The notes beneath the pieces are model-generated. The model ran no database searches and was not told the DNA's origin. It worked only from the letters and a program-made list of their open reading frames with translations. Of a stretch of 64,000 nt of DNA, positions 41,330 through 58,237 are shown piece after piece (position 1 is the stretch's first letter; each line of letters begins with the position of its first letter). The stretch comes from Verrucomicrobiia bacterium (GTDB lineage Bacteria > Verrucomicrobiota > Verrucomicrobiia > Verrucomicrobiales > DEV007), in NCBI GenBank assembly GCA_030427505.1, contig JAUICH010000017.1, positions 1 through 64,000 on the forward strand. The letters are read 5' to 3'. The position numbers were made by a program, and so were the translations under genes.

Positions 41330-41740
41330 CTAGTGATACTGATTCACCGTTACCACCTTCCCGGAGATGTTCCCGGCCGCGGAGTTCGTCACCCGGAACC
41401 GCAGATACCGCGGCAGATCCGACGGCGGACGCCACCGGACCGATGCCCCAGACGCCCCGGCGCCACCCGCGCCCGTTAACACCAACAACCGGTCCGCGAT
41501 CACCGCCGTGGGAGTGTCGGTCTCACCCGCGCACGCCGCCACGATCAGCGTGGCCGCGTCTCCCAGTTCCCCCGTGGTCACCGTGGGGAGGGTGATTTGA
41601 TATTCCACGCTTTCCGGAAACTGCGCGTCCGCGTTCCTCGCGCCCGTGTCGATCGCGTCCGTGTAGATCGCCGCCGCCCCGTTCGGGAGCGCCTTCGTTA
41701 CCGGCGAAACCGCCGCGTCTTCAATCCGTCTGCCGCTCAT
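41330..41740 (-). CDS. Bbp16-like capsid cement/decoration protein
   Basis: The 136-aa product has AIYTDAIDTGARNADAQFPE, TLIVAACAGETDTPTAVIAD and a C-terminal LPRYLRFRVTNSAAGNISGK, the pattern of small beta-sandwich cement proteins of the Bbp16 type. It directly follows the major capsid gene in transcription order, as such proteins usually do. Confidence 0.6.
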   Translation of the reverse strand: MSGRRIEDAAVSPVTKALPNGAAAIYTDAIDTGARNADAQFPESVEYQITLPTVTTGELGDAATLIVAACAGETDTPTAVIADRLLVLTGAGGAGASGASVRWRPPSDLPRYLRFRVTNSAAGNISGKVVTVNQYH

Positions 41741-48349: not shown

Positions 48350-48889
48350 TCAATCCTCACCCACCTCCCAGGCCTCCGAAAACTCCTTATCCGCGAACAT
48401 CTCCGCCAACCCCGTTATCTGCTTTAGTCTCAGCACTTCATCCGGCTCCATTCCCAATTCCTTCGCAATTTTCTCCTCGCTCCAGTTCCTCCGGCTCAGG
48501 TCCAACACGATGTCCGCCATCGCGTCCACCTGGTGTTTCCCCCGCGCCCGGTTGTGCCGGATCGTGGACGCGATCCGGTCCCCCTTCGCCGCCCGCTCCC
48601 CATTAATCACCACAATCGGCAAGTGACTCATCCCTTTCGCCTTTCCCACCAAATGCCGGTGGAATCCGTCCACCACCTCGAAAAGTCCGTCTTCCCGCTC
48701 CCACGTCACGATCGGCTGTGTGAACCCGTCGCAGTCGATCGAGTGCCTCAAAAGCTTCATCTCCGGAGGCGCCACCGAGTTCGGGTTGTAGTCATTCGCC
48801 ACCACCAGTTCCGCCGGAACCCACCGCACAAACGAAACCGGGTGGTGCTTCGTCCATTCCGGCGGTTCGGATTCTAAATGAGTTGCCAT
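48350..48889 (-). CDS. IbrB-like ParB/sulfiredoxin-domain protein
   Basis: From ATG 48889 (GGAGG upstream) the product is 179 aa. The ParB-like nuclease fold is visible: VPAELVVANDYNPNSVAPPE, FTQPIVTWEREDGLFEVVDG, then FHRHL, plus a DRIASTIRHNRARGKHQVDA segment and an HTH-like end (KIAKELGMEPDEVLRLKQI). It overlaps the end of the PAPS reductase-like gene. In E. coli the same pair is IbrA/IbrB (and YbdN/YbdM), whose biochemistry is unresolved. Confidence 0.75.
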   Translation of the reverse strand: MATHLESEPPEWTKHHPVSFVRWVPAELVVANDYNPNSVAPPEMKLLRHSIDCDGFTQPIVTWEREDGLFEVVDGFHRHLVGKAKGMSHLPIVVINGERAAKGDRIASTIRHNRARGKHQVDAMADIVLDLSRRNWSEEKIAKELGMEPDEVLRLKQITGLAEMFADKEFSEAWEVGED

Positions 48890-50079
48890 TCTTCCCTCCG
48901 TTTCTTCATCATATTCTTGTATTTCTCGTAACCCTCCGTCGAATGCTGGGCAAAGCTCAACCCCTTGCACCAATAATCATTCCGGAGGAGCGCCTTACAG
49001 ATCCGTTGCCAGCTTGGCAACGCCTTAGTCGTTACCGGCCCCGCGTCCGGGATGCCCTCCGGGTAACCCCGTTTCTCATACCACTTGAGAAACACCGCGA
49101 TCTTGTTCCGGAAATGCTCCGCCGTCGCCGGGGGCATTGAGTCCAGCATCATCCGGGCAAAACTCTCCCACGTGTGGCCCTCCGGCTTCGTGATCCTCAT
49201 ATTCCCCATCACGTTTCCCGCCTCTTGCACATACAGCGCCCCCTGGTTCGCTCCCGCCACCCGCGCCACCACCCGCCCCCACGTTTCCGGTTCGATCAAG
49301 TGATACAGCCACAGCCCCCGCCTCTGATCGTCCCCATACGGTTGGCAAATCCTCGCCTGGTGAATCGTCAGCCCCGCCCGGTGCATGTAGTCATAGAGCC
49401 GGTTATATGGTTCTCCCGTCTTCCCGTGGTAAATCCAAATATCCTGCGTTTTCCAGTCGTAGAGCGGATACGCATTCACCACGTGCCCGCTTACTCGCGT
49501 TGTCCACCCCAGGCCCGCGTGCCGTTCCTTCTTGTTCGTCGCGATCGTCCGCCACCGGTTCAAACTCTCATCGCTCCGGATACCCACGAAACACGCGCAT
49601 CGCCGCCCGTCCGCATACCATTCCCCGAATGCCGCCACAAACTCCTCAAATTCCATCCGCCCTCCATAAAAAGGAAACCTCGCCGGGTCCGTGATCGCCC
49701 GCCGCGGCGGTTGTCTCACCCAATCCCCCTCCCGCCCAGGCTCCCAGCAACACCACTGCGGTTCGAACTGAGAAACCGCGTTTCTCAACTTCAGAGGCAC
49801 CGCCACCCAGAACGCCTCCACCCATTCCGCGTAGTGTTCGAACATCGCCTCCGCGTGCTCCATTGTCAGCCGGTATTGCGCCTCCAGATCCACCAGAAAC
49901 AGCCCCACCTTCCGCCCCCGCTTCCGCGCCTCCGCCATCACCAGATGGAGCATCACCGTCGAGTCCTTCCCCGCCGAAAAACTCACGTAAATCCGTTCGA
50001 AATCGTCAAACACCCGCGCCACCCGCGCCCGAGCCGCCGTCAGCACGTCACAACCAAGACCCTTTTTGCGCCCACTCAT
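48874..50079 (-). CDS. IbrA-like PAPS reductase superfamily protein (DUF3440)
   Basis: The 401-aa product has the ATP-pyrophosphatase loop of PAPS reductases (YVSFSAGKDSTVMLHLVMAE) and continues LFLVDLEAQYRLTMEHAEAM, then CACFVGIRSDESLNRWRTI, YDWKTQDIWIYHGKTGEPYN and RLYDYMHRAGLTIHQARICQ. This is the DUF3440/IbrA pattern, longer than a true PAPS reductase and without its Cys-terminal catalytic motif. It is coupled to an IbrB-like gene and lies between the large terminase and portal genes. Its reaction is unknown. Confidence 0.8.
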   Translation of the reverse strand: MSGRKKGLGCDVLTAARARVARVFDDFERIYVSFSAGKDSTVMLHLVMAEARKRGRKVGLFLVDLEAQYRLTMEHAEAMFEHYAEWVEAFWVAVPLKLRNAVSQFEPQWCCWEPGREGDWVRQPPRRAITDPARFPFYGGRMEFEEFVAAFGEWYADGRRCACFVGIRSDESLNRWRTIATNKKERHAGLGWTTRVSGHVVNAYPLYDWKTQDIWIYHGKTGEPYNRLYDYMHRAGLTIHQARICQPYGDDQRRGLWLYHLIEPETWGRVVARVAGANQGALYVQEAGNVMGNMRITKPEGHTWESFARMMLDSMPPATAEHFRNKIAVFLKWYEKRGYPEGIPDAGPVTTKALPSWQRICKALLRNDYWCKGLSFAQHSTEGYEKYKNMMKKRREEWQLI

Positions 50080-50122: not shown

Positions 50123-52009
50123 TCATTTTCGGCGCCTTCCTTTCCGCTTCACGCTCTCCGCCATCACCGTGGGTCCGATCATCTGCCAGAACACAAACTG
50201 TTTCTTGCCGCAATCGCCCCAGTCATTCGGCCCCAACGTGTCATCATGAACCCATCGTTGGATCTTGCGCCCGCCCACTTGCTCCACCACGAATTTCTCA
50301 CTCGTCCACTCCGTGAGAATCCCATCCGGCACCGGGTCCGGTAGCCACAACCGCGGTTCCTCCCGCCGGGCAATCTTCCCAAGGTAGAAATCGCATTTCA
50401 CGCCGTGGTCATAGTATTCAATGACCATCACTTGTTGTCCCGAATCGGTCCAGTCTTCCACCTCCCTCAAGTTCCGGCCCCGGAACTCGGAATGGAACCC
50501 CGAGCCCCGCGAGGGATGAACCGACCACCCCAAGGCCTGGCCCTTTAGGCACGCCTCATACACCCGTTTTTGCCGGTAGCGCGAATCGATCAGTCCTCCG
50601 AACGTGTAAAACGGTTTCCGCGGGTTCCCGACCCAGGGATAGGGCCGCGTCCGGAGCGAAAGAAACTCGTCCTCATCCGCGCACATCCCGAAATCCACCA
50701 GAAAGCTCTCTCCCCGTTCGTTCCAGGCGAACACCAGATATTTAATAATCTCCTTTTGCCGGTCCCCCGTGATCGTGAGCACCTTGGGCTTGAAGGGCAA
50801 CATTCCCACTTGTTCGCCGCGCTCGTAAACCAGCCCGAACCGTTCCCCCAGCACGATCCGTTTGCCGTCCCGTTCCTCCACCAGACCCCCGCGGAGGTTC
50901 AGAATCGCTGTATCCTTGAGCCCCATCTCCCGCGCTTCGATCGGGAGCCCCAGGTGGTTCGTCCGGAAATCGTCCTGAGCCGCGTGGTTAGGCGCCAGCA
51001 CGTGCGCCGTGAGCCACTTCTTGGCCAGCGCCCCCCAGCGCACCCCAGGGAAAGAGGAATACAGATCCGAGATATGGAAGCTCCGCACCCCGGGCTCCGG
51101 CGCCACGCTCCGCCCGTCCAGCTTCATCCGTTCCTTGAGTGCCGTGGGCACCCATTCCCCCTTGGCCACCATCGCCTTTTTCTGGCTCTCCCGGATCGGC
51201 TCGTGGCACTTTTGGCATTCGTAAAACGTCTCCGCCTCCACCCGGTCCAGATCCCAGCCCTCCGCCAGATCCTTACAGTGGCCGAACCTCAAAAACTCCC
51301 ACCTGAGTTCTATTCTCTCCCCGCAGTGTGGGCACGGCACCATCCATTTCTCCTGGCTCCCTTTAACATAGGCCCGGTGAATGATGCCCCCCTCATGCTG
51401 GGGTTTTCCCAGCACAAAAAGCAGCGCGTCGCTTACCGTCGTGAACCGCGATTGCATCGCGGAGTAGGTGGTTCCGTCCGGGAGATTCTCGTGATCCTCC
51501 GGCTCATCCAGCACGCCCAGGCGATACCACGTCTCCCGGAACGGGTTCGGGCTCCCGGAGCCCGCCACCGCGATCTCCATGTTGCGGAGCACGATGTGAA
51601 ACGTGGAAAAATCGTTGGGATCTTCGGAAACCTGATCCGCCGCGCAATCCTTCAGCGTCTCCGCCAGTCTAACCTTTGAAATGCGCCTCGCTTTGGTGAG
51701 CGAGTTGATCACATACCCCACGTTGCCCGGCCAGTGCTTCGGCATCCACCGGATCACGTTGAGCGTGGCCTCCGTGTAGCCGCTCTGGCTGGACTTCATC
51801 GCCGCCCCCTCCCGCGTGTCCGGATCTCGCGGGAGATCTTGCCACGCCCGCGTCCAGGGTGTCAGGCGGCTATCGTAACCCGTCACCTCCGCCGCCATCT
51901 TTTCGGAGAAACGCACGTTCGCATCCGCCCACTCCCACACCGGCTCCGTGGGTGAGCCCCGGAACGTGGAATCAAAGATCCCCAGCAAGAACGCCCGCTC
52001 CGCGATCAC
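50123..52009 (-). CDS. Terminase large subunit, gpA-type
   Basis: The 628-aa product matches the lambda gpA family. A deviant Walker A reads MKSSQSGYTEATLNVI, Walker B is RLGVLDEPEDH, and a central zinc region (CPHCGERIELRWEF, ECQKCHEPIRES) follows. The nuclease half has VLTITGDRQKEIIKYLVFAW. This family packages DNA from cos ends, which points to a cos mechanism. The start overlaps the small-subunit stop by four bases. Confidence 0.92.
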   Translation of the reverse strand: MIAERAFLLGIFDSTFRGSPTEPVWEWADANVRFSEKMAAEVTGYDSRLTPWTRAWQDLPRDPDTREGAAMKSSQSGYTEATLNVIRWMPKHWPGNVGYVINSLTKARRISKVRLAETLKDCAADQVSEDPNDFSTFHIVLRNMEIAVAGSGSPNPFRETWYRLGVLDEPEDHENLPDGTTYSAMQSRFTTVSDALLFVLGKPQHEGGIIHRAYVKGSQEKWMVPCPHCGERIELRWEFLRFGHCKDLAEGWDLDRVEAETFYECQKCHEPIRESQKKAMVAKGEWVPTALKERMKLDGRSVAPEPGVRSFHISDLYSSFPGVRWGALAKKWLTAHVLAPNHAAQDDFRTNHLGLPIEAREMGLKDTAILNLRGGLVEERDGKRIVLGERFGLVYERGEQVGMLPFKPKVLTITGDRQKEIIKYLVFAWNERGESFLVDFGMCADEDEFLSLRTRPYPWVGNPRKPFYTFGGLIDSRYRQKRVYEACLKGQALGWSVHPSRGSGFHSEFRGRNLREVEDWTDSGQQVMVIEYYDHGVKCDFYLGKIARREEPRLWLPDPVPDGILTEWTSEKFVVEQVGGRKIQRWVHDDTLGPNDWGDCGKKQFVFWQMIGPTVMAESVKRKGRRRK

Positions 52010-53031
52010 CCCGCCACCTCCGCGCTCTCACGCTCCGCCCCCTCCCGCACCGCCACCGAGAACTCGGAAGCACGGAGCTTCTTGAAACACTCATCCCTCG
52101 CCGCCACCGCCAGCGCCCGCCGTTCCCCCGCGTCCATCTCCGGCGCCACCGTCTCAAGCAGCTCCACCATTTGCGCCAACACGTTCCGGGCGATCGCCGC
52201 CGCCATGCTCACGATCTCCGCCACCAGCACGTTTTTCCGGAGGAGGTGCCCCCGTTCCTCCATAATCCGGTTATAGTCCTTCTCCCAAACCCGTTGGGTG
52301 CTCACCGCCTCCATCCACACCTTGCGCCACCGGTCCGCTTTGGCTTCCAAGCCATCCTCCAGAGCCCGCCGCATCTCGTTATATGCCGTCTCCGCCAGCG
52401 CCCGGGCTTGCCTCAACCCCAGGTCCGCCTCAATCTCAACATCCAAGTCCCCCAGCTTCACCGGCTCCGCCCGTTCCGGCTCCGCCTTCTCCTCCGCCGG
52501 CTTGCCGCCCTGGCCACCAGCCCCCGCCAGTTCCATCACCGGCGCCCGGCCCGCCCGTTGCTCGGCAATCGCCACCTCCACGATCTTGTCCGGAATCTTC
52601 GCCGTCATGTGCGCCCGCCACCAGAGCACCAAGGCATTGGCATCATGGAGCGGAGGCAGTTCCTTGAGCCCCGTGCCCCGTGCCTTGCCCGCCTCCTGGC
52701 CAATCGCCACCCAGGAACGCACCGTCCGGTCCGATTTCCCAAACCGCTCCCCGTAAATCTTGTAAGACTCCGGATACAGAATCCGGCCATCCTTCATCAC
52801 CCGCACCACCGCCTCCACCGGCCCCAGGCCATCGCCCGCCGCCAGCTCCTCACCGCCAGTCTCCCCAACCGGCTCACCCTTCTCCGCCCGCTCAGCTCGC
52901 TCCGCCTCCTTGAACCACGCCTCCAGGAGTTGGGATTGCCGGTCCGTGAGTGGCTTCCCCTCTCCCAATCGCTTTTCAATCACCCCGATTTCTGCCGCTC
53001 GGAGCTCCCTCGCCCTGTCCGCGTCTGCCAT
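52006..53031 (-). CDS. Putative terminase small subunit, long form
   Basis: The 341-aa product lies directly upstream of the large terminase (ATGA overlap). Near residues 80-115 it has a wing-helix-like stretch (YPESYKIYGERFGKSDRTVR followed by SWVAIGQEAG) as in small terminases, then a long helical C-terminus (LGLRQARALAETAYNEMRRA). It is about twice the usual length of the family. The 600-bp repeat region at 53032-53631 is immediately upstream. Confidence 0.65.
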   Translation of the reverse strand: MADADRARELRAAEIGVIEKRLGEGKPLTDRQSQLLEAWFKEAERAERAEKGEPVGETGGEELAAGDGLGPVEAVVRVMKDGRILYPESYKIYGERFGKSDRTVRSWVAIGQEAGKARGTGLKELPPLHDANALVLWWRAHMTAKIPDKIVEVAIAEQRAGRAPVMELAGAGGQGGKPAEEKAEPERAEPVKLGDLDVEIEADLGLRQARALAETAYNEMRRALEDGLEAKADRWRKVWMEAVSTQRVWEKDYNRIMEERGHLLRKNVLVAEIVSMAAAIARNVLAQMVELLETVAPEMDAGERRALAVAARDECFKKLRASEFSVAVREGAERESAEVAG

Positions 53032-53631
53032 GCACCTCGATTTCTGCCAGTTACCCCAAACCAGCAGTCAAAAGCGGCAATCCCGGCGGCACCCCGCCCA
53101 TGCACCATGCGCCCCGCCACCACCCAGCCCCGCGCCTCATGCATGGGCAGCGGCAGAAAAATTTTCGGCCTCCGGCACCATTTCTACCATTTGGACTCGC
53201 TCAATACGACCAACGAGGCCCATGCAGGAGACTCCTTACCCCCCCGGCTTTATGGTGCTGGCCACCGAACATTTTCCGCCGCCCATCTGCCCATGCATTA
53301 CCCCCGGACCGCCTAACCGCCTTACTTTTCACAAACCCCTACCTGACAGACTAAACCTATCTACGATTTTCCTTTTCCCAAAGTAAGGCGGTTAGGTGGT
53401 CCAACACCATAACCCCCTCCCCCTCAAGCCCCCGCGTGGACCACCTACGAGACCGCCTCGCGATTTTTTAGCCGTGGAGGCGGTCCGGGCCACTTGCTCG
53501 CCCTCTTTCATCGGCCAAAAACCCCGCCTTTTGTCGCCAGCGACAAGCCCTTGGACCACCTCCCACCTCCCGGACCGCCTTCCATAGACCGCCTCGCGGT
53601 CCTCTGGACCGCCTAAAAAATTTCGTCAGAC
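53032..53631. other. Repeat-rich non-coding region: candidate cos site and replication origin
   Basis: This is the longest gene-free stretch in the prophage, between the primase-helicase and terminase genes. Near the terminase side CCCATGCA occurs at 53097-53104, 53219-53226 and 53290-53297 and inverted at 53140-53147. Toward the primase side GGACC(A/G)CC occurs at 53306, 53438, 53553, 53572 and 53606 and inverted at 53395, 53479 and 53595 (first base given), with AGACCGCC variants. A 23-bp inverted repeat (53306-53328 and 53380-53402, one mismatch) and a TTGTCGC/GCGACAA hairpin (53532-53548) are also present. gpA-type phages carry cos just upstream of the small terminase. Confidence 0.6.
53306..53402. 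repeat. 23-bp inverted repeat in the candidate origin
   Basis: Bases 53306-53328 (GGACCGCCTAACCGCC...) and 53380-53402 are inverse complements with one mismatch, separated by 51 AT-richer bases (about 53329-53379). Each arm contains one GGACC(A/G)CC word at its outer end. Such a layout is common at origins and at terminase-binding sites. Confidence 0.7.
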
Positions 53632-55959
53632 TCACTCCTCATCCGGCGTGGACCGTCCGACCTCCACGCCAGCCAGCCAACGCACCTTCTCCTTTTGCCC
53701 CGGCGGGATGCTCCGGCGCCGCCGCTCCTGGAGCTCAGGCCGCACCCGGCACACCTCCCTCACAAACGGCATTTGATCCGTGGTGAACGGCTTTACCCCG
53801 TAGTGCTCACACCACTCCACAAAGCGATCCAGGAGATCTTGATTGGTGCACCATGAGCTCTCCGCCGCGTCCAGCTTCACCCACATATCCCCAGCCTCCA
53901 GAAACGATTTCACCTGGTTCCGGTGGCGCATCAGCTCATTGATCGCCTCAATGTTCCCCCTGGTGTGAGCAAAGTGTCCCCTAGCATGAAGCCGCCGGTA
54001 GCCCTCCACCGCCCACCGGAAAATCCCCGGGAGCTCCTTGAGGAGCTTCTCCTTGAGCCGGAAATCCTGCTGTTCCCTTGGGATCGATTTCATCCAGTTC
54101 ATTTGGAGAAACCGCCGCCCAAACCCATCCCCAGCATCCGGAGTGTGAGCCACCACGTTGGAAGTCATCACAAACCGGCCTTGAGGAAGGAAAGAAAAAC
54201 CCGGCTTGTGTTTCCGGTCCACATAGACTGGCTCATTCGCCGCGATTTGCTTGATCAAGCCAATATGCTTCCACGAGTTCTTCGTGAGCTCTCCGGCTAG
54301 ATAGAGCCGTTTACCCACCAGAGATCCCCGGGTGAACGGGTTGTCCAGTTCCTCCAATTGGAGCGCCAACGTGTTCTCTTGGCCCACCAAAGCGGACAGA
54401 ATATCCACCACCGTGGACTTCCCCGTGCCCCCCGGCCCAAACAGGAAAAAGAACACGTGGTAAGAGATCCCTGGAATCGCGCAATAGCCATACATCTCCT
54501 GGACTTGGTTACGCTCATCCTCCTCCGGCTTCATCTCTTGGAGCCACTCCAAGAACCGGGGACACTCCGCCCTTTCGTCCCACTCCACCGGGAGTTGCGT
54601 GGTGGACCGGAACCGCCGGTCATGAGGCAACAGCTCCCCGGTGAGCACGTTGAGCATACCGCTCCGGCAGTTCACCAAGTGCGGTATCTCCACCGCGTTC
54701 AATCGGTCCGGATGGCAATACTCAGCCGAGCGCATCAGCCACACCACCGATTCAATCAGGCTCTTGGAGATCATCGGCTCCGTGAGTCCATCGCTCCTCA
54801 GCGCTTCTCTCACCCAGGCCTCCACCTTCTCCGGGCTCCTCACATCCACATACCGGCCTCCCCGGTCCCATTGCCAGAAATCCCCCGAGTGCATCAGGTC
54901 ATGGAGCTTAACTAAGCGATTCGCCATCCGGTCCTGGAGGATCGTGATGCCGCCCCGGTCCCCCACCGTGTAGAGCCGATCGAAAGCGATCTCCTTGGGC
55001 ACCGTCGTCTCCTCCGCCATCCCACGGAGTTCCCTCCTCACCGCTTCCCCATCCACCTCACCGCGTTTCTGACTCAGCCCGGCCAGATACCCCGCCACCG
55101 TCGCCGGTTCGGATTCGGGCGGAGCATACACCTTGCCCATCTCCAGCAAGTGAAGCCGCCGGCAATGGTCCAGCACTTGCCGCACGAATCCCCTCGCCCT
55201 GGCATCATCCATCTCCGACACCACCACCACCCACCGCTTGCCCAGCACCTCAAACAGCTCCGGCCCCATCTCCAGGCCAAAGAGCGCCACCCCATGGAGC
55301 CCCACCCCACGGAGCGCCTCCGCCGCTTCCTCGCCTTCCGTGGCCCACACCGGTTCCCACTCCGGCACTTTTGCCAGATAGGCCACCGCCGCCTCCAGCG
55401 CCTCATTGCCGCCCTCCGTGGCAAACACCCGCCCCCGGAGCGCCTCTAGCTGATTCGCCACCGTCACCAGCCCCCGGCCCACGTCCCCATCCATCGCCTC
55501 CGTTTGGAGCCGTTCCCCCATGAGCCAAATCTCCCGGCGCCGCCAGAAATCCTCCAGCGTTCGGAGATAAAGCGGAAGCATCGATGGGGTGGGCACATCA
55601 TCCACCAGTTCCCCCACCGTTCCCGCGCCACCCACCTCCTCCATTTTTCCGGACTGCAAAAGCGCCGCGTTCAGCCCGATCAAATCAAAAGTGCCATCCG
55701 CCCTCCACAGCGACACCATCACCATCCAGAGCGTTCGATGAGCCGGAACGAAAAAGGCGCAATTTCCGCTCCGCGGCATCCCCTCGCCAATCTTCGCCAG
55801 CACCTCCGGCACACACCTCACCGGAGCTTGCAGACAGCACGAGAGCACCGCCCTCTCCGTGTCACGGCTCACCGGCAGACTTTGCCCTAACAAAGCCCCC
55901 TGATCGCCTTTCCCGTTCCCTTTGCCCTTTCCCCTTCCCCCGTTCGATTTTCCCGCCAT
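53632..55959 (-). CDS. Primase-helicase: DnaB-N domain fused to SF3 helicase
   Basis: The 775-aa product starts with a DnaB-type N-terminal domain (about 30-150: RDTERAVLSCCLQAPVRCVP, FFVPAHRTLWMVMVSLWRAD). A middle part follows with VVVVSEMDDARARGFV, toprim-like at best. The C-terminal half is a P4/D5-type superfamily 3 helicase: FLFGPGGTGKSTVVDILSAL (Walker A), KRLYLAGELTKNS (Walker B region), and RFVMTSNVVAHTPDAGDGFG followed by RRF. It would start and drive phage replication, with the adjacent repeat region as likely origin. DnaB-N joined to SF3 instead of RecA-type helicase is uncommon. Confidence 0.85.
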   Translation of the reverse strand: MAGKSNGGRGKGKGNGKGDQGALLGQSLPVSRDTERAVLSCCLQAPVRCVPEVLAKIGEGMPRSGNCAFFVPAHRTLWMVMVSLWRADGTFDLIGLNAALLQSGKMEEVGGAGTVGELVDDVPTPSMLPLYLRTLEDFWRRREIWLMGERLQTEAMDGDVGRGLVTVANQLEALRGRVFATEGGNEALEAAVAYLAKVPEWEPVWATEGEEAAEALRGVGLHGVALFGLEMGPELFEVLGKRWVVVVSEMDDARARGFVRQVLDHCRRLHLLEMGKVYAPPESEPATVAGYLAGLSQKRGEVDGEAVRRELRGMAEETTVPKEIAFDRLYTVGDRGGITILQDRMANRLVKLHDLMHSGDFWQWDRGGRYVDVRSPEKVEAWVREALRSDGLTEPMISKSLIESVVWLMRSAEYCHPDRLNAVEIPHLVNCRSGMLNVLTGELLPHDRRFRSTTQLPVEWDERAECPRFLEWLQEMKPEEDERNQVQEMYGYCAIPGISYHVFFFLFGPGGTGKSTVVDILSALVGQENTLALQLEELDNPFTRGSLVGKRLYLAGELTKNSWKHIGLIKQIAANEPVYVDRKHKPGFSFLPQGRFVMTSNVVAHTPDAGDGFGRRFLQMNWMKSIPREQQDFRLKEKLLKELPGIFRWAVEGYRRLHARGHFAHTRGNIEAINELMRHRNQVKSFLEAGDMWVKLDAAESSWCTNQDLLDRFVEWCEHYGVKPFTTDQMPFVREVCRVRPELQERRRRSIPPGQKEKVRWLAGVEVGRSTPDEE

Positions 55960-56048: not shown

Positions 56049-57791
56049 CTAGCCCTCCTCCACCGCTTCCACCGGCTGATGCTCCGGCAGCGACACCCCG
56101 TAGAGCTCCACCAGCCGTTTCCAAGCCTCCGAATCCTCCAGGGAATCGCCCTCCCACAGATCGAACCAATAGAGCGCCCAGGAGCACACACAAAGTGAGG
56201 CAAACCCTCCCCACTCACGCTCAAAGCCCGGCCACCTCGCGAACACACTTTTTTGAGAGTCCGGTTCCACCCGGTCCAGCGCCATGAGAACGTGCATCGC
56301 CGGATATTGCTCTCCCCCCAATCCCAGCATCCCCGCGGAGATCAGAAAGGCCGCACACTCCCGCTCGAACTCATTCCGATCCTCCACCTTTTTCGTGGGG
56401 GTCAGTAAACCAGATCCCGGCCGCACCATCCCCTCGATCGCCAAAAGCATCGCCCGGGCCGTCTCCGCCCGCTCCGCCGCTTCCGTCTCCTCATCCCGCT
56501 CCGCGTGCTTTGCCTGGCTTTGCTGCGCCTGCTTGTCCTTGCTCTCCACCGCCGGGAAAGGGCACATCGCCATATCCTCCGCGTGAGCCACCCGGGCCGC
56601 GTCAATCACCAAGTGACGGTTAACCAAGAGCCTCACCACCATCTCCCCATCACAGGCCGCATACAGCGGAGCGCCAAACTTGCCCGCCAGCTCCCCCCAG
56701 GTCTCGCCCGGCACCTTGCCCGGAGCCAGTTCCTTCCCTTTCGGCACCGCCTCCGCCAGCCGCCACGGGCTATCCGCCCCCGCCCTCAGAAACGTGGAAT
56801 CCTGCTCAAACAGCTCCCGGCACACCGCGAAATCCAGAATCTCAATGTCGATCCCGTGCTCCTTGCGGATCGCCCCCTCCATGCCCGCCCAGCGCTTCCG
56901 GTCCTCCGCGGGCTTGAGATATCGGTTCCGGATCAGCCTCTCCGCCTCCGCCTGGCTCCCCGCTTTCGCCGCCGCCTCCAGCGCTGCCATCCGCGCCGTG
57001 CCCGGCCCGCTCTCCGCGTTCTCACACATCTCCACCGGCACCTTGAGCCCCGCCTCCGCCACGTAGAGTTTCACCTCCCCGGCATCCACCTTTTCCAGCC
57101 ACTCCTGCGGCAGTTCCAGCAATCGCAAGCAACGGTGCACCCTCGTCTTAGGCACGCCCAACGTCCTGGAGATCTCCCTCTCTGAAGCCCCAAAGCCCGC
57201 CATTCGCTCATACCCCAGCGCCTCCTCCACCGGCGTTAGATCGTCCCGTTGCAGATTCTCGATCATCTGAATCCGGAGCACCGTTTCATCATCCAGTTCC
57301 CGGATCACCACCGGCAGTTCCATCTCCTTCGCCGGGAACTCCGCGCCCATGCCCTCCTCACATAGGCACGTGGCCCGCCACCGCCGCTCCCCACAGACAA
57401 TCTCCACCGGCCCGTCCGCCCGCCTCCGGCCCGTGATCGGCTGAGCCACCCCGTCGTGATACACACTCTCCGCCAGCTCCCGCAGCTTCACCGGATCGAA
57501 CCGCTTCCGCGGCTGCAGCGGAGACGGGATCACATCATGGGGACGGAACACCACGATCATCCGCGGATCATCCTCCCCCTTCCGTTTCTCCACCGCCTTC
57601 GGCGCCACCCCGCCCCCTTGCCGGTTCCGCGCCCGCTCCCGCCGCTTTTGCACCCGCTTCACCAGCCGGTTCACCTCCAGAGCATCCATCCCAAATTCCC
57701 GCGACGCCTCCTCATAACCACCCTTGCCGTGCTCAGCGTTCCAACGCTCCACAAAATCCACCACCTCATTTTCCTGTTTTAACGATTTCAT
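56049..57791 (-). CDS. ParB/Spo0J-like protein
   Basis: ATG 57791 follows the initiation word GATTGGGAGTTAG. The 580-aa product has the ParB N-domain: PLQPRKRFDPVKLRELAESV, QPITGRRRADGPVEIVCGER followed by RWRA, and a strong ENLQRDDLTPVEEALGYERM. An HTH follows (ASEREISRTLGVPKTRVHRC). A long C-terminal part is unassigned. No ParA is present. Phage ParB-like proteins may act in plasmid-like maintenance or as transcriptional or nuclease factors. Confidence 0.8.
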   Translation of the reverse strand: MKSLKQENEVVDFVERWNAEHGKGGYEEASREFGMDALEVNRLVKRVQKRRERARNRQGGGVAPKAVEKRKGEDDPRMIVVFRPHDVIPSPLQPRKRFDPVKLRELAESVYHDGVAQPITGRRRADGPVEIVCGERRWRATCLCEEGMGAEFPAKEMELPVVIRELDDETVLRIQMIENLQRDDLTPVEEALGYERMAGFGASEREISRTLGVPKTRVHRCLRLLELPQEWLEKVDAGEVKLYVAEAGLKVPVEMCENAESGPGTARMAALEAAAKAGSQAEAERLIRNRYLKPAEDRKRWAGMEGAIRKEHGIDIEILDFAVCRELFEQDSTFLRAGADSPWRLAEAVPKGKELAPGKVPGETWGELAGKFGAPLYAACDGEMVVRLLVNRHLVIDAARVAHAEDMAMCPFPAVESKDKQAQQSQAKHAERDEETEAAERAETARAMLLAIEGMVRPGSGLLTPTKKVEDRNEFERECAAFLISAGMLGLGGEQYPAMHVLMALDRVEPDSQKSVFARWPGFEREWGGFASLCVCSWALYWFDLWEGDSLEDSEAWKRLVELYGVSLPEHQPVEAVEEG

Positions 57792-57829
57792 ATCTAACTC
57801 CCAATCTGTTCTCCGCTCACCGTTTGCGG

Positions 57830-58237
57830 TCATTCAACCTCCGATGTCAGCACCGGCTCCACCCCGGCCAAATAGTGTTCCAAAGAACTATGGCGCCTCA
57901 CGGTAGGATGATGGTAGAACGCGCATGTCTCTGGAGATGCGGCGTGATGTTCTGCCACATCGCTAACGAAACTTATGGGAATACCGGCTCCTATCGCGAT
58001 GCCCATTTCCACATGAGTCCCTCTGCCTCCCGGCCAAAGAACTATCACCTCATCCGCCTCAAGAACGCCCCTCGCCTCACTCTTTGCCACTTCCTCAATA
58101 ACCTCCATTCCCCTTCGCCATACCGCCCCGTGGCGTGTCCAGTCGTAGGTGATCTTGTGACCCAACGCCGCCAGAGCATCTCTCAAGCGGTTGTGCTCTG
58201 CATGGTTCTCTAGTCTTGTCGCGATATAGAATCTCAT
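57830..58237 (-). CDS. Nucleoside 2-deoxyribosyltransferase-like protein
   Basis: From ATG 58237 (same GATTGGGAGTTAG ribosome word as the ParB gene) the product is 135 aa. The fold signature is clear: RFYIATRLENHAEHNRLRDA, ITYDWTRHG, then EADEVIVLWPGGRGTHVEMG and IAIGAGIPI, where the GTHVEMG Glu is the catalytic nucleophile position. The family exchanges bases on deoxynucleosides or cleaves nucleotides. It may serve nucleotide salvage or DNA modification by the phage. Confidence 0.8.
   Translation of the reverse strand: MRFYIATRLENHAEHNRLRDALAALGHKITYDWTRHGAVWRRGMEVIEEVAKSEARGVLEADEVIVLWPGGRGTHVEMGIAIGAGIPISFVSDVAEHHAASPETCAFYHHPTVRRHSSLEHYLAGVEPVLTSEVE

Follow-up and report, generated by a model that had tools for sequence, protein, structure and literature searches.

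The gap at 53032–53631 of the window, as we call the whole 64-kb stretch of DNA analysed, is bounded by the start of a 341-aa gene in the place of the small terminase gene (terS) and by the stop of a replicase gene. The minus strand reads, in order, replicase, gap, terS-position gene and a large terminase gene (terL) of the gpA type (Table 1), with genes for a portal, a head protease and the major head protein downstream of terL (Pfam/PHROGs). The ORF positions and motif counts confirm that the gap, described beforehand as a 600-bp non-coding region with two motif families, is real; its sequence occurs only once in its own genome, in which no second gpA terL was found. The interval from terL to the portal gene encodes a PAPS-reductase/DUF3440 protein and a ParB-like protein (48874–50079 and 48350–48973). 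The terS-position product gave no family match in Pfam or PHROGs, and its structure model no fold match in the PDB, in both cases at E ≤ 0.001; we read its residues ca. 86–118, where the model has helices, as helix-turn-helix-like.

In the replicase, a DnaB N-terminal domain is fused to D5_N and SF3-type helicase parts; Pfam detected D5_N and DUF5906 and gave no primase-polymerase match. A comparison with PDB sequences retrieved 7ola, a 'DNA primase' that we take to be a SaPI protein (E 1.9e-7, residues 425–642), as well as three DnaB helicases; a structure model was dropped (pLDDT 38). As a query, the replicase found no match in the viral contigs, and blastp finds it unrelated to its positional counterparts in the relatives, so that the window repeats lack a close comparison. 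A ParB-like gene (56049–57833) is located two genes from the gap.

Table 1. Genes and putative sites in and around the gap of the window (strand: +, plus; -, minus;., none assigned)
Feature	Position	Strand	Basis
Large terminase, gpA type	50123..52009	-	GpA_ATPase and GpA_nuclease domains
terS-position gene, 341 aa	52006..53031	-	Position; aligns with terS-position genes of 12 relatives
CCCATGCA copy, between predicted cosN and terS	53097..53104	+	Motif count
Possible R3-like TerS site TGCCGCTGCCCATGCA, bp 50-65, containing inverted CCCATGCA	53140..53155	-	TGMCGYT in relatives
A/T tract GAAAATTTTT, bp 39-48 of predicted left end	53157..53166	-	Lambda: GAAAATTTTCC at bp 33-43 (L097)
Predicted cosN, 12-nt cohesive end TTGAGCGAGTCC	53193..53204	-	Box start 33 nt upstream and TGCCGCT at bp 50
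CCCATGCA copy, touching cosQ-like box	53219..53226	+	Motif count
cosQ-like box AAGGAGTCTCCT, after seven consecutive G and a T	53226..53237	-	Relatives with AAGGAATCTYTT at the same place
CCCATGCA copy, replicase side of box	53290..53297	+	Motif count
Putative origin, nine (G/A)GACC(A/G)CCT	53306..53614	.	Copies at 53306+, 53394-, 53438+, 53450+, 53478-, 53553+, 53572+, 53586+, 53606+
23-bp inverted repeat, 51-nt loop, one repeat per arm	53306..53402	.	Pairing, shuffles, folding
Replicase: DnaB N-terminal domain, D5_N, DUF5906 (SF3-type helicase)	53632..55959	-	Pfam, PHROGs

Three direct copies and one inverted copy of CCCATGCA were found on the terminase side, as the preliminary description had it (direct at 53097, 53219 and 53290, inverted at 53140; four of the six copies in the window). 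Its 'at least eight' copies of GGACC(A/G)CC need the looser form (G/A)GACC(A/G)CCT, with nine copies in the gap and three elsewhere in the window, because the exact form occurs seven times in the gap (five plus, two minus). None of 1000 dinucleotide shuffles reached the motif counts of the gap; as a 9-mer with one mismatch is common in the window (57 places, nine of them in the gap), the enrichment depends on near-exact copies. The two families do not interleave, CCCATGCA occupying 53097–53297 and the GGACC words 53306–53614. The 23-bp inverted repeat reported on the primase side is likewise present, with arms at 53306–53328 and 53380–53402 that are 96% paired and each begin with one repeat; its score is 20, versus 9 or less in 25 shuffles, single-strand folding gives a z of -5.8, and it lies 229 nt from the replicase stop codon. 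The gap has the location of a lambda-like cos, directly upstream of terS-terL with a gpA-type TerL, and at its other side repeats that adjoin the putative initiator gene, as in an iteron-type origin, and a large stem-loop 3′ of the replication gene, as in pRN1.

The related loci do not conserve the sequence of either motif at this place. Among the non-coding regions of 14 relatives, GGACC(A/G)CC appears once in L063 and in none of the other 13, and is a peculiarity of the window; CCCATGCA is present in two. Because of this low count, and because in L100 ACCCATGC is the replicase-side repeat, CCCATGCA did not stand as a conserved terminase motif and is, at most, a plausible candidate terminase site.

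The ends of related contigs map where packaged ends had been expected. Of 26 IMG/VR contigs from TerL searches, one of which (L065, 23% identity) was left out of the analysis, 12 terminate at one homologous spot, which lies upstream of terS or of genes preceding terS (L022, L059, L060, L061, L062, L064, L082, L084, L085, L090, L094, L104), eight run across it (L058, L063, L080, L081, L083, L087, L089, L096) and five end inside nearby genes (L026, L086, L088, L095, L105); one scan of genome contigs was without matches, and the other gave two distant loci, left unused. In our own alignment, 10 of the 12 ends agree within 1 nt, and those of L104 and L060 are about 11 and 18 nt further in, respectively. 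The contigs are not all independent: L061 and L064 share 9604 of 9711 bases, L084 and L090 have the same first 130 bases, L022 and L059 begin alike, and L080 and L081 are 100% identical over the TerL match. The terS-side ends read GGTAAACGTCT, GGTAAGCGTCT, GGATTATCGTCC, GGTATAATGTCC, GGCATGCCGCCC and similar, at a GG..GYCC site on the terS side of the box described below and outside the repeats. Contig G466 (38,437 bp) has both ends, a terS end GGTAAGCGTCTCGC.. and, beyond the replicase, an end ..GCGGGTAAGCGTCT that repeats the same 11 bp. L082 starts with 33 nt of adapter-like sequence, presumably an Illumina sequencing adapter, fused to GGTATCACGTCC; L083 runs across the base where L084 and L090 start; and L096, a phage contig of 36.7 kb, has a 127-bp direct repeat at its two ends that makes it circular, with the cos joined inside (L171/L172). 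The relatives' ends at the homologous spot are compatible with a 12-nt cohesive end and are probably virion ends.

The preliminary idea of a cos holds for its location upstream of terS-terL; the conserved mark, on the other hand, is not a motif listed there but the box, AAGGAGTCTCCT in the window. There it is preceded by GGGGGGGT, a G run also seen in L032, L080 and L099. The pattern AAGGAATCT[TCA][TC] gave seven plus-strand matches across 17 viral loci (198 kb) and 11 across 20 prophage loci (112 kb), with no minus-strand match in either set; all 18 matches in the 37 loci are on the packaging strand. According to the ORF lists, 81–341 nt separate the box from the gene that follows it; the exception is L152, with the box 5.2 kb from terL. 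One further match falls in replicase-like coding sequence of L007, away from any known cos. Nine of the 20 prophage loci lack the box, among them L143, of just 800 bases. Across the host genome, the loose pattern KAAGGARTCTYYT occurs no more often than by chance, with three matches against four for the reversed control, and the window box therefore counts by its place and strand only; a G at its sixth base was allowed after the window sequence had been seen. The same genome has a box, TAAGGAATCTCTT, at 41434–41446 of contig C3 (L178), between ORFs near a tail tape-measure-like ORF.

The distance of the box from the cut was examined with a weight matrix built from seven contig ends, two of the loci scored (L058 and L083) being near relatives of the training sequences. 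In eight of 20 crossing loci the matrix ranks the cut first, and AAGGAATCTYTT begins 32–36 nt before it (L058, L063, L083, L087, L089, L096, L135, L136); in the other 12 it prefers other places (L080, L099, L100, L137, L138, L139, L140, L142, L149, L153, L154, L155, of which L154 and L155 are near-identical there). In Akkermansia phage Moulinsart, 189 nt separate the box from the gene that precedes terL, and the box region of L154, a prophage from the same bacterial order, is nearly identical to that of Moulinsart, which points to a Verrucomicrobiota-type host for the phage of the window.

Outside this group, eight gpA phages of other hosts were scanned over as many as 1200 bases ahead of the annotated gene preceding terL, and none had a box within two mismatches; the best matches have three mismatches in L157 and four in six phages, and L163, with 147 bases, has none within four. 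Three of the eight (L161, L162, L164) have the lambda-type GGGTCCTT close upstream of that gene instead, as do two of the box-less prophages of the host's phylum (L147, L150). In the record of the Paenibacillus phage L157 (MZ092003.1), long runs of G and C are followed by adapter-like sequence, presumably an Illumina adapter, inside the record and just upstream of the gene before terL.

In the window, the cut was placed by the position of the box and by TGCCGCT, which falls at bp 50–56 from the predicted cut, with GTC at bp 9–11, as in the relatives, and the inverted CCCATGCA at bp 58–65. Near terminase relatives have TGMCGYT at bp 49–50, which reads TGACGCT in L061 and L064 and also in L080, whose cut was set with the box rule, and TGCCGTT in L085; L104 has TGACGTA at about this place. 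The cut is probably exactly at 53193–53204, even though the predicted overhang is without the leading GG of the relatives and the matrix ranks window sites at +154, +142 and -212 nt from the box first. A composite pattern of box, cut and bp-50 word matched only the window; it was written after seeing the window and is thus no evidence. A cos in the gap as proposed might, less probably, be cut elsewhere, either at GGGGTGCCGCCG (53084–53095), the second-ranked site of the matrix scan and similar to the ends of contigs L061 and L085 (GG..GCCGCC), or with a left end at about 53129, beside a palindrome at 53130–53153, since another TGCCGCT is found at 53079, with TTTTGAC after it, and would place bp 1 near there. 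However, neither of these cuts has the box 32–36 nt upstream, and the one at GGGGTGCCGCCG has no A/T tract and no R3-like word at bp 50. We consider such a cut possible but rather unlikely; it is in any case a variant of the preferred reading, with which its odds overlap.

The arrangement around the predicted cut at 53193–53204 resembles cos of phage lambda, for which the cited accounts describe the roles of cosQ, cosN and cosB (PMC4669245, PMC9026076) and R3 at bp 50–65 (PMC9026076). The likeness extends to the location upstream of terS-terL with a gpA TerL, to a predicted 12-nt cohesive end, which would fit the relatives' ends, to a short conserved box at roughly the cosQ position, and to putative elements near bp 50, the place of R3 (PMC4669245, PMC9026076). 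The cosQ sequence of lambda, GGGTCCT, starts 30 nt from the right nick; it is not found at the box place in the window, which has AAGGAGTCTCCT instead, and the box of the relatives is AAGGAATCTYTT. By analogy, the box may well do the job of lambda cosQ. No lambda R sequences were recognised by eye, and a further difference is that the putative origin is directly beside the box here, whereas the origin of lambda lies in gene O.

Repeats occur in every gap examined. In the non-coding regions of the window and 16 relatives, repeated 8-mer pairs exceed the shuffle mean in 17/17 cases, and in 13 of them none of 300 shuffles reached the count; the weaker ones are L058, L080, L140 and L154 (reached by 3, 21, 6 and 11 of 300 shuffles, respectively). 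Eight of ten coding controls were ordinary, the others being L058 (16/200) and L138 (6/200). The repeated words are ACCTATGC in L059, L136, L137 and L140, ACCTGTGC in L058, ACCCATGC in L100, CTTGCCAC in L087, CGACCCTCTCG in L096, GGTGACGAG in L138 and GGACCGCCT in the window, and L099 has no word above two copies. Inverted repeats beat all 25 shuffles in five of 15 non-coding regions, those of the window (23-nt arms), L137 (22), L136 (16), L058 (11) and L096 (10); among the 14 relatives only L136 and L137 have long arms, and in both the arms start with a repeat.

These words follow the replicase. In ten relatives the genes preceding the gap match PHROGs of unknown function, and four of them also 'DNA polymerase/primase', so that the label replicase is partly inferred for them; upstream of the gap in L089 and L154, no gene could be identified as a replicase. 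One blastp replicase group (L058, L059 (partial), L100, L136, L137 and L140) has ACCYRYGC in 6/6 loci, in 3–9 copies; of nine other loci, L135 has six copies, L087 two, L096 one and six none, L135 being the exception to the rule, with ACCYRYGC words and a replicase of another group. In Mantel tests of few loci with a home-made repeat score, repeat similarity correlated with that of the replicase (15 loci, rho 0.34, 36/5000) and not with that of TerL (-0.006, 2404/5000). Conversely, the first 60 bases of cos, in 10 loci, for which the box and a GTC rule had helped to locate part of the cut sites, followed TerL (0.69, 26/5000) and not the replicase (-0.15, 4134/5000), and the 12-nt overhang did likewise (TerL, 0.68, 45/5000). 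L087 and L135 illustrate this, with the same overhang, GGTATAACGTCC, replicases of different groups and different repeats. The proposal that terminase and replicase sites lie side by side is therefore supported: repeats go with the replicase and the cut-site sequence with the terminase.

The GGACCRCCT repeats of the window might instead be parS-like centromere or operator sites for the ParB-like protein encoded at 56049–57833, as ParB-like genes lie near the replicase in the window, L058, L083, L087 and, weakly, L096. Yet the repeats of L058 and L087 differ (ACCTGTGC and CTTGCCAC) despite 37% identity over 372 aa between the two ParB-like proteins, and it is the replicase that repeat similarity tracks in the Mantel test; we therefore regard centromere or operator sites as unlikely. 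A DNA methyltransferase with a ParB-like part is found after cos and before terS in L135 and L099.

The window replicase and its putative binding sites can be compared with known initiators. In pRN1, a 21-nt stem with a 58-nt loop follows the SF3 replication gene and is needed for replication, and the same arrangement is proposed for phage BIP-1 (PMC4234260). The window is alike in having a stem-loop of about 100 nt downstream of the replication gene, with a 23-bp stem and a 51-nt loop; it differs in its repeats, which extend into the arms, whereas pRN1 lacks the iteron structure according to that paper and its protein has a primase domain of another type (PMC4234260). A pRN1-type replication protein would combine an archaeo-eukaryotic primase with an SF3 helicase and a winged helix; in the window replicase, D5_N and DUF5906 are the corresponding Pfam matches for comparison. 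The P4 alpha protein is likewise, in that account, an SF3-type replicase with ori repeats (PMC4234260). Its repeats and domains differ from those of the window. The alignment of 7ola to residues 425–642 likens the window replicase to the SaPI replicase. In SaPIs, Rep and iterons co-vary; to our knowledge, no cos lies beside the SaPI iteron origin.

A more ordinary explanation would be a spacer with a terminator, a late promoter and operators, in which the repeats are regulatory; the gap does separate a replication gene from a packaging operon, and TTTTGAC upstream of terS resembles a -35 box. But no promoter-like or terminator-like site was found in 52900–53750 at the scan thresholds (shuffles: 0.3 and 0.7), and a spacer leaves the contig ends, the 11-bp end overlap and the one-stranded box unexplained, which makes this explanation very improbable. 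Assemblies do break at repeats, and repeats are nearby, but it is hardly credible that the relatives' contig ends are such breaks instead of DNA ends, given that they fall at GG..GYCC on the terS side of the box and outside the repeats, that the adapter-like sequence is joined at the end base in L082, and that L083 and the circular L096 cross the base where L084 and L090 start.

Considering all this, the gap is very likely an origin of replication beside a lambda-type cos of a gpA-terminase prophage in a Verrucomicrobiota-type host. On the replicase side, the D5/SF3-type replicase would bind the stem-loop and the nine GGACCRCCT repeats that follow its own gene, and binding might melt the DNA or open the stem-loop, so that replication starts and, as in lambda, would give concatemers. 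On the terS side, TerS would bind near bp 50–65, judging by the position of its site in lambda, and the terminase would make staggered nicks in the concatemers that leave a 12-nt cohesive end; TerL would nick at the cut, pack, and stop at the next cut aided by the box AAGGARTCTYYT, 33 nt upstream of the cut.

We found no literature on cos sites of Verrucomicrobia prophages or on cohesive ends of Akkermansia phages, and little in print on packaging in phages of this bacterial group. On balance, we favour the view that gpA terminases use at least two classes of cosQ, GGGTCCTT and, in many Verrucomicrobiota-type phages, AAGGAATCTYTT, and that origin and cos make up a single exchangeable cassette with two separately evolving halves, in which the repeats keep step with the replicase and the cut site keeps step with the terminase. 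As two unlike boxes hold about the same place before homologous terminases, what a cosQ must look like becomes a testable question. Metagenome contigs can reveal genome ends, and the box would provide a sequence mark for the packaging cut, and hence for the true genome ends, in phages of this bacterial group; if origin and cos are indeed one cassette, no more than a few hundred bases would separate the start of replication from the packaging cut in these phages.
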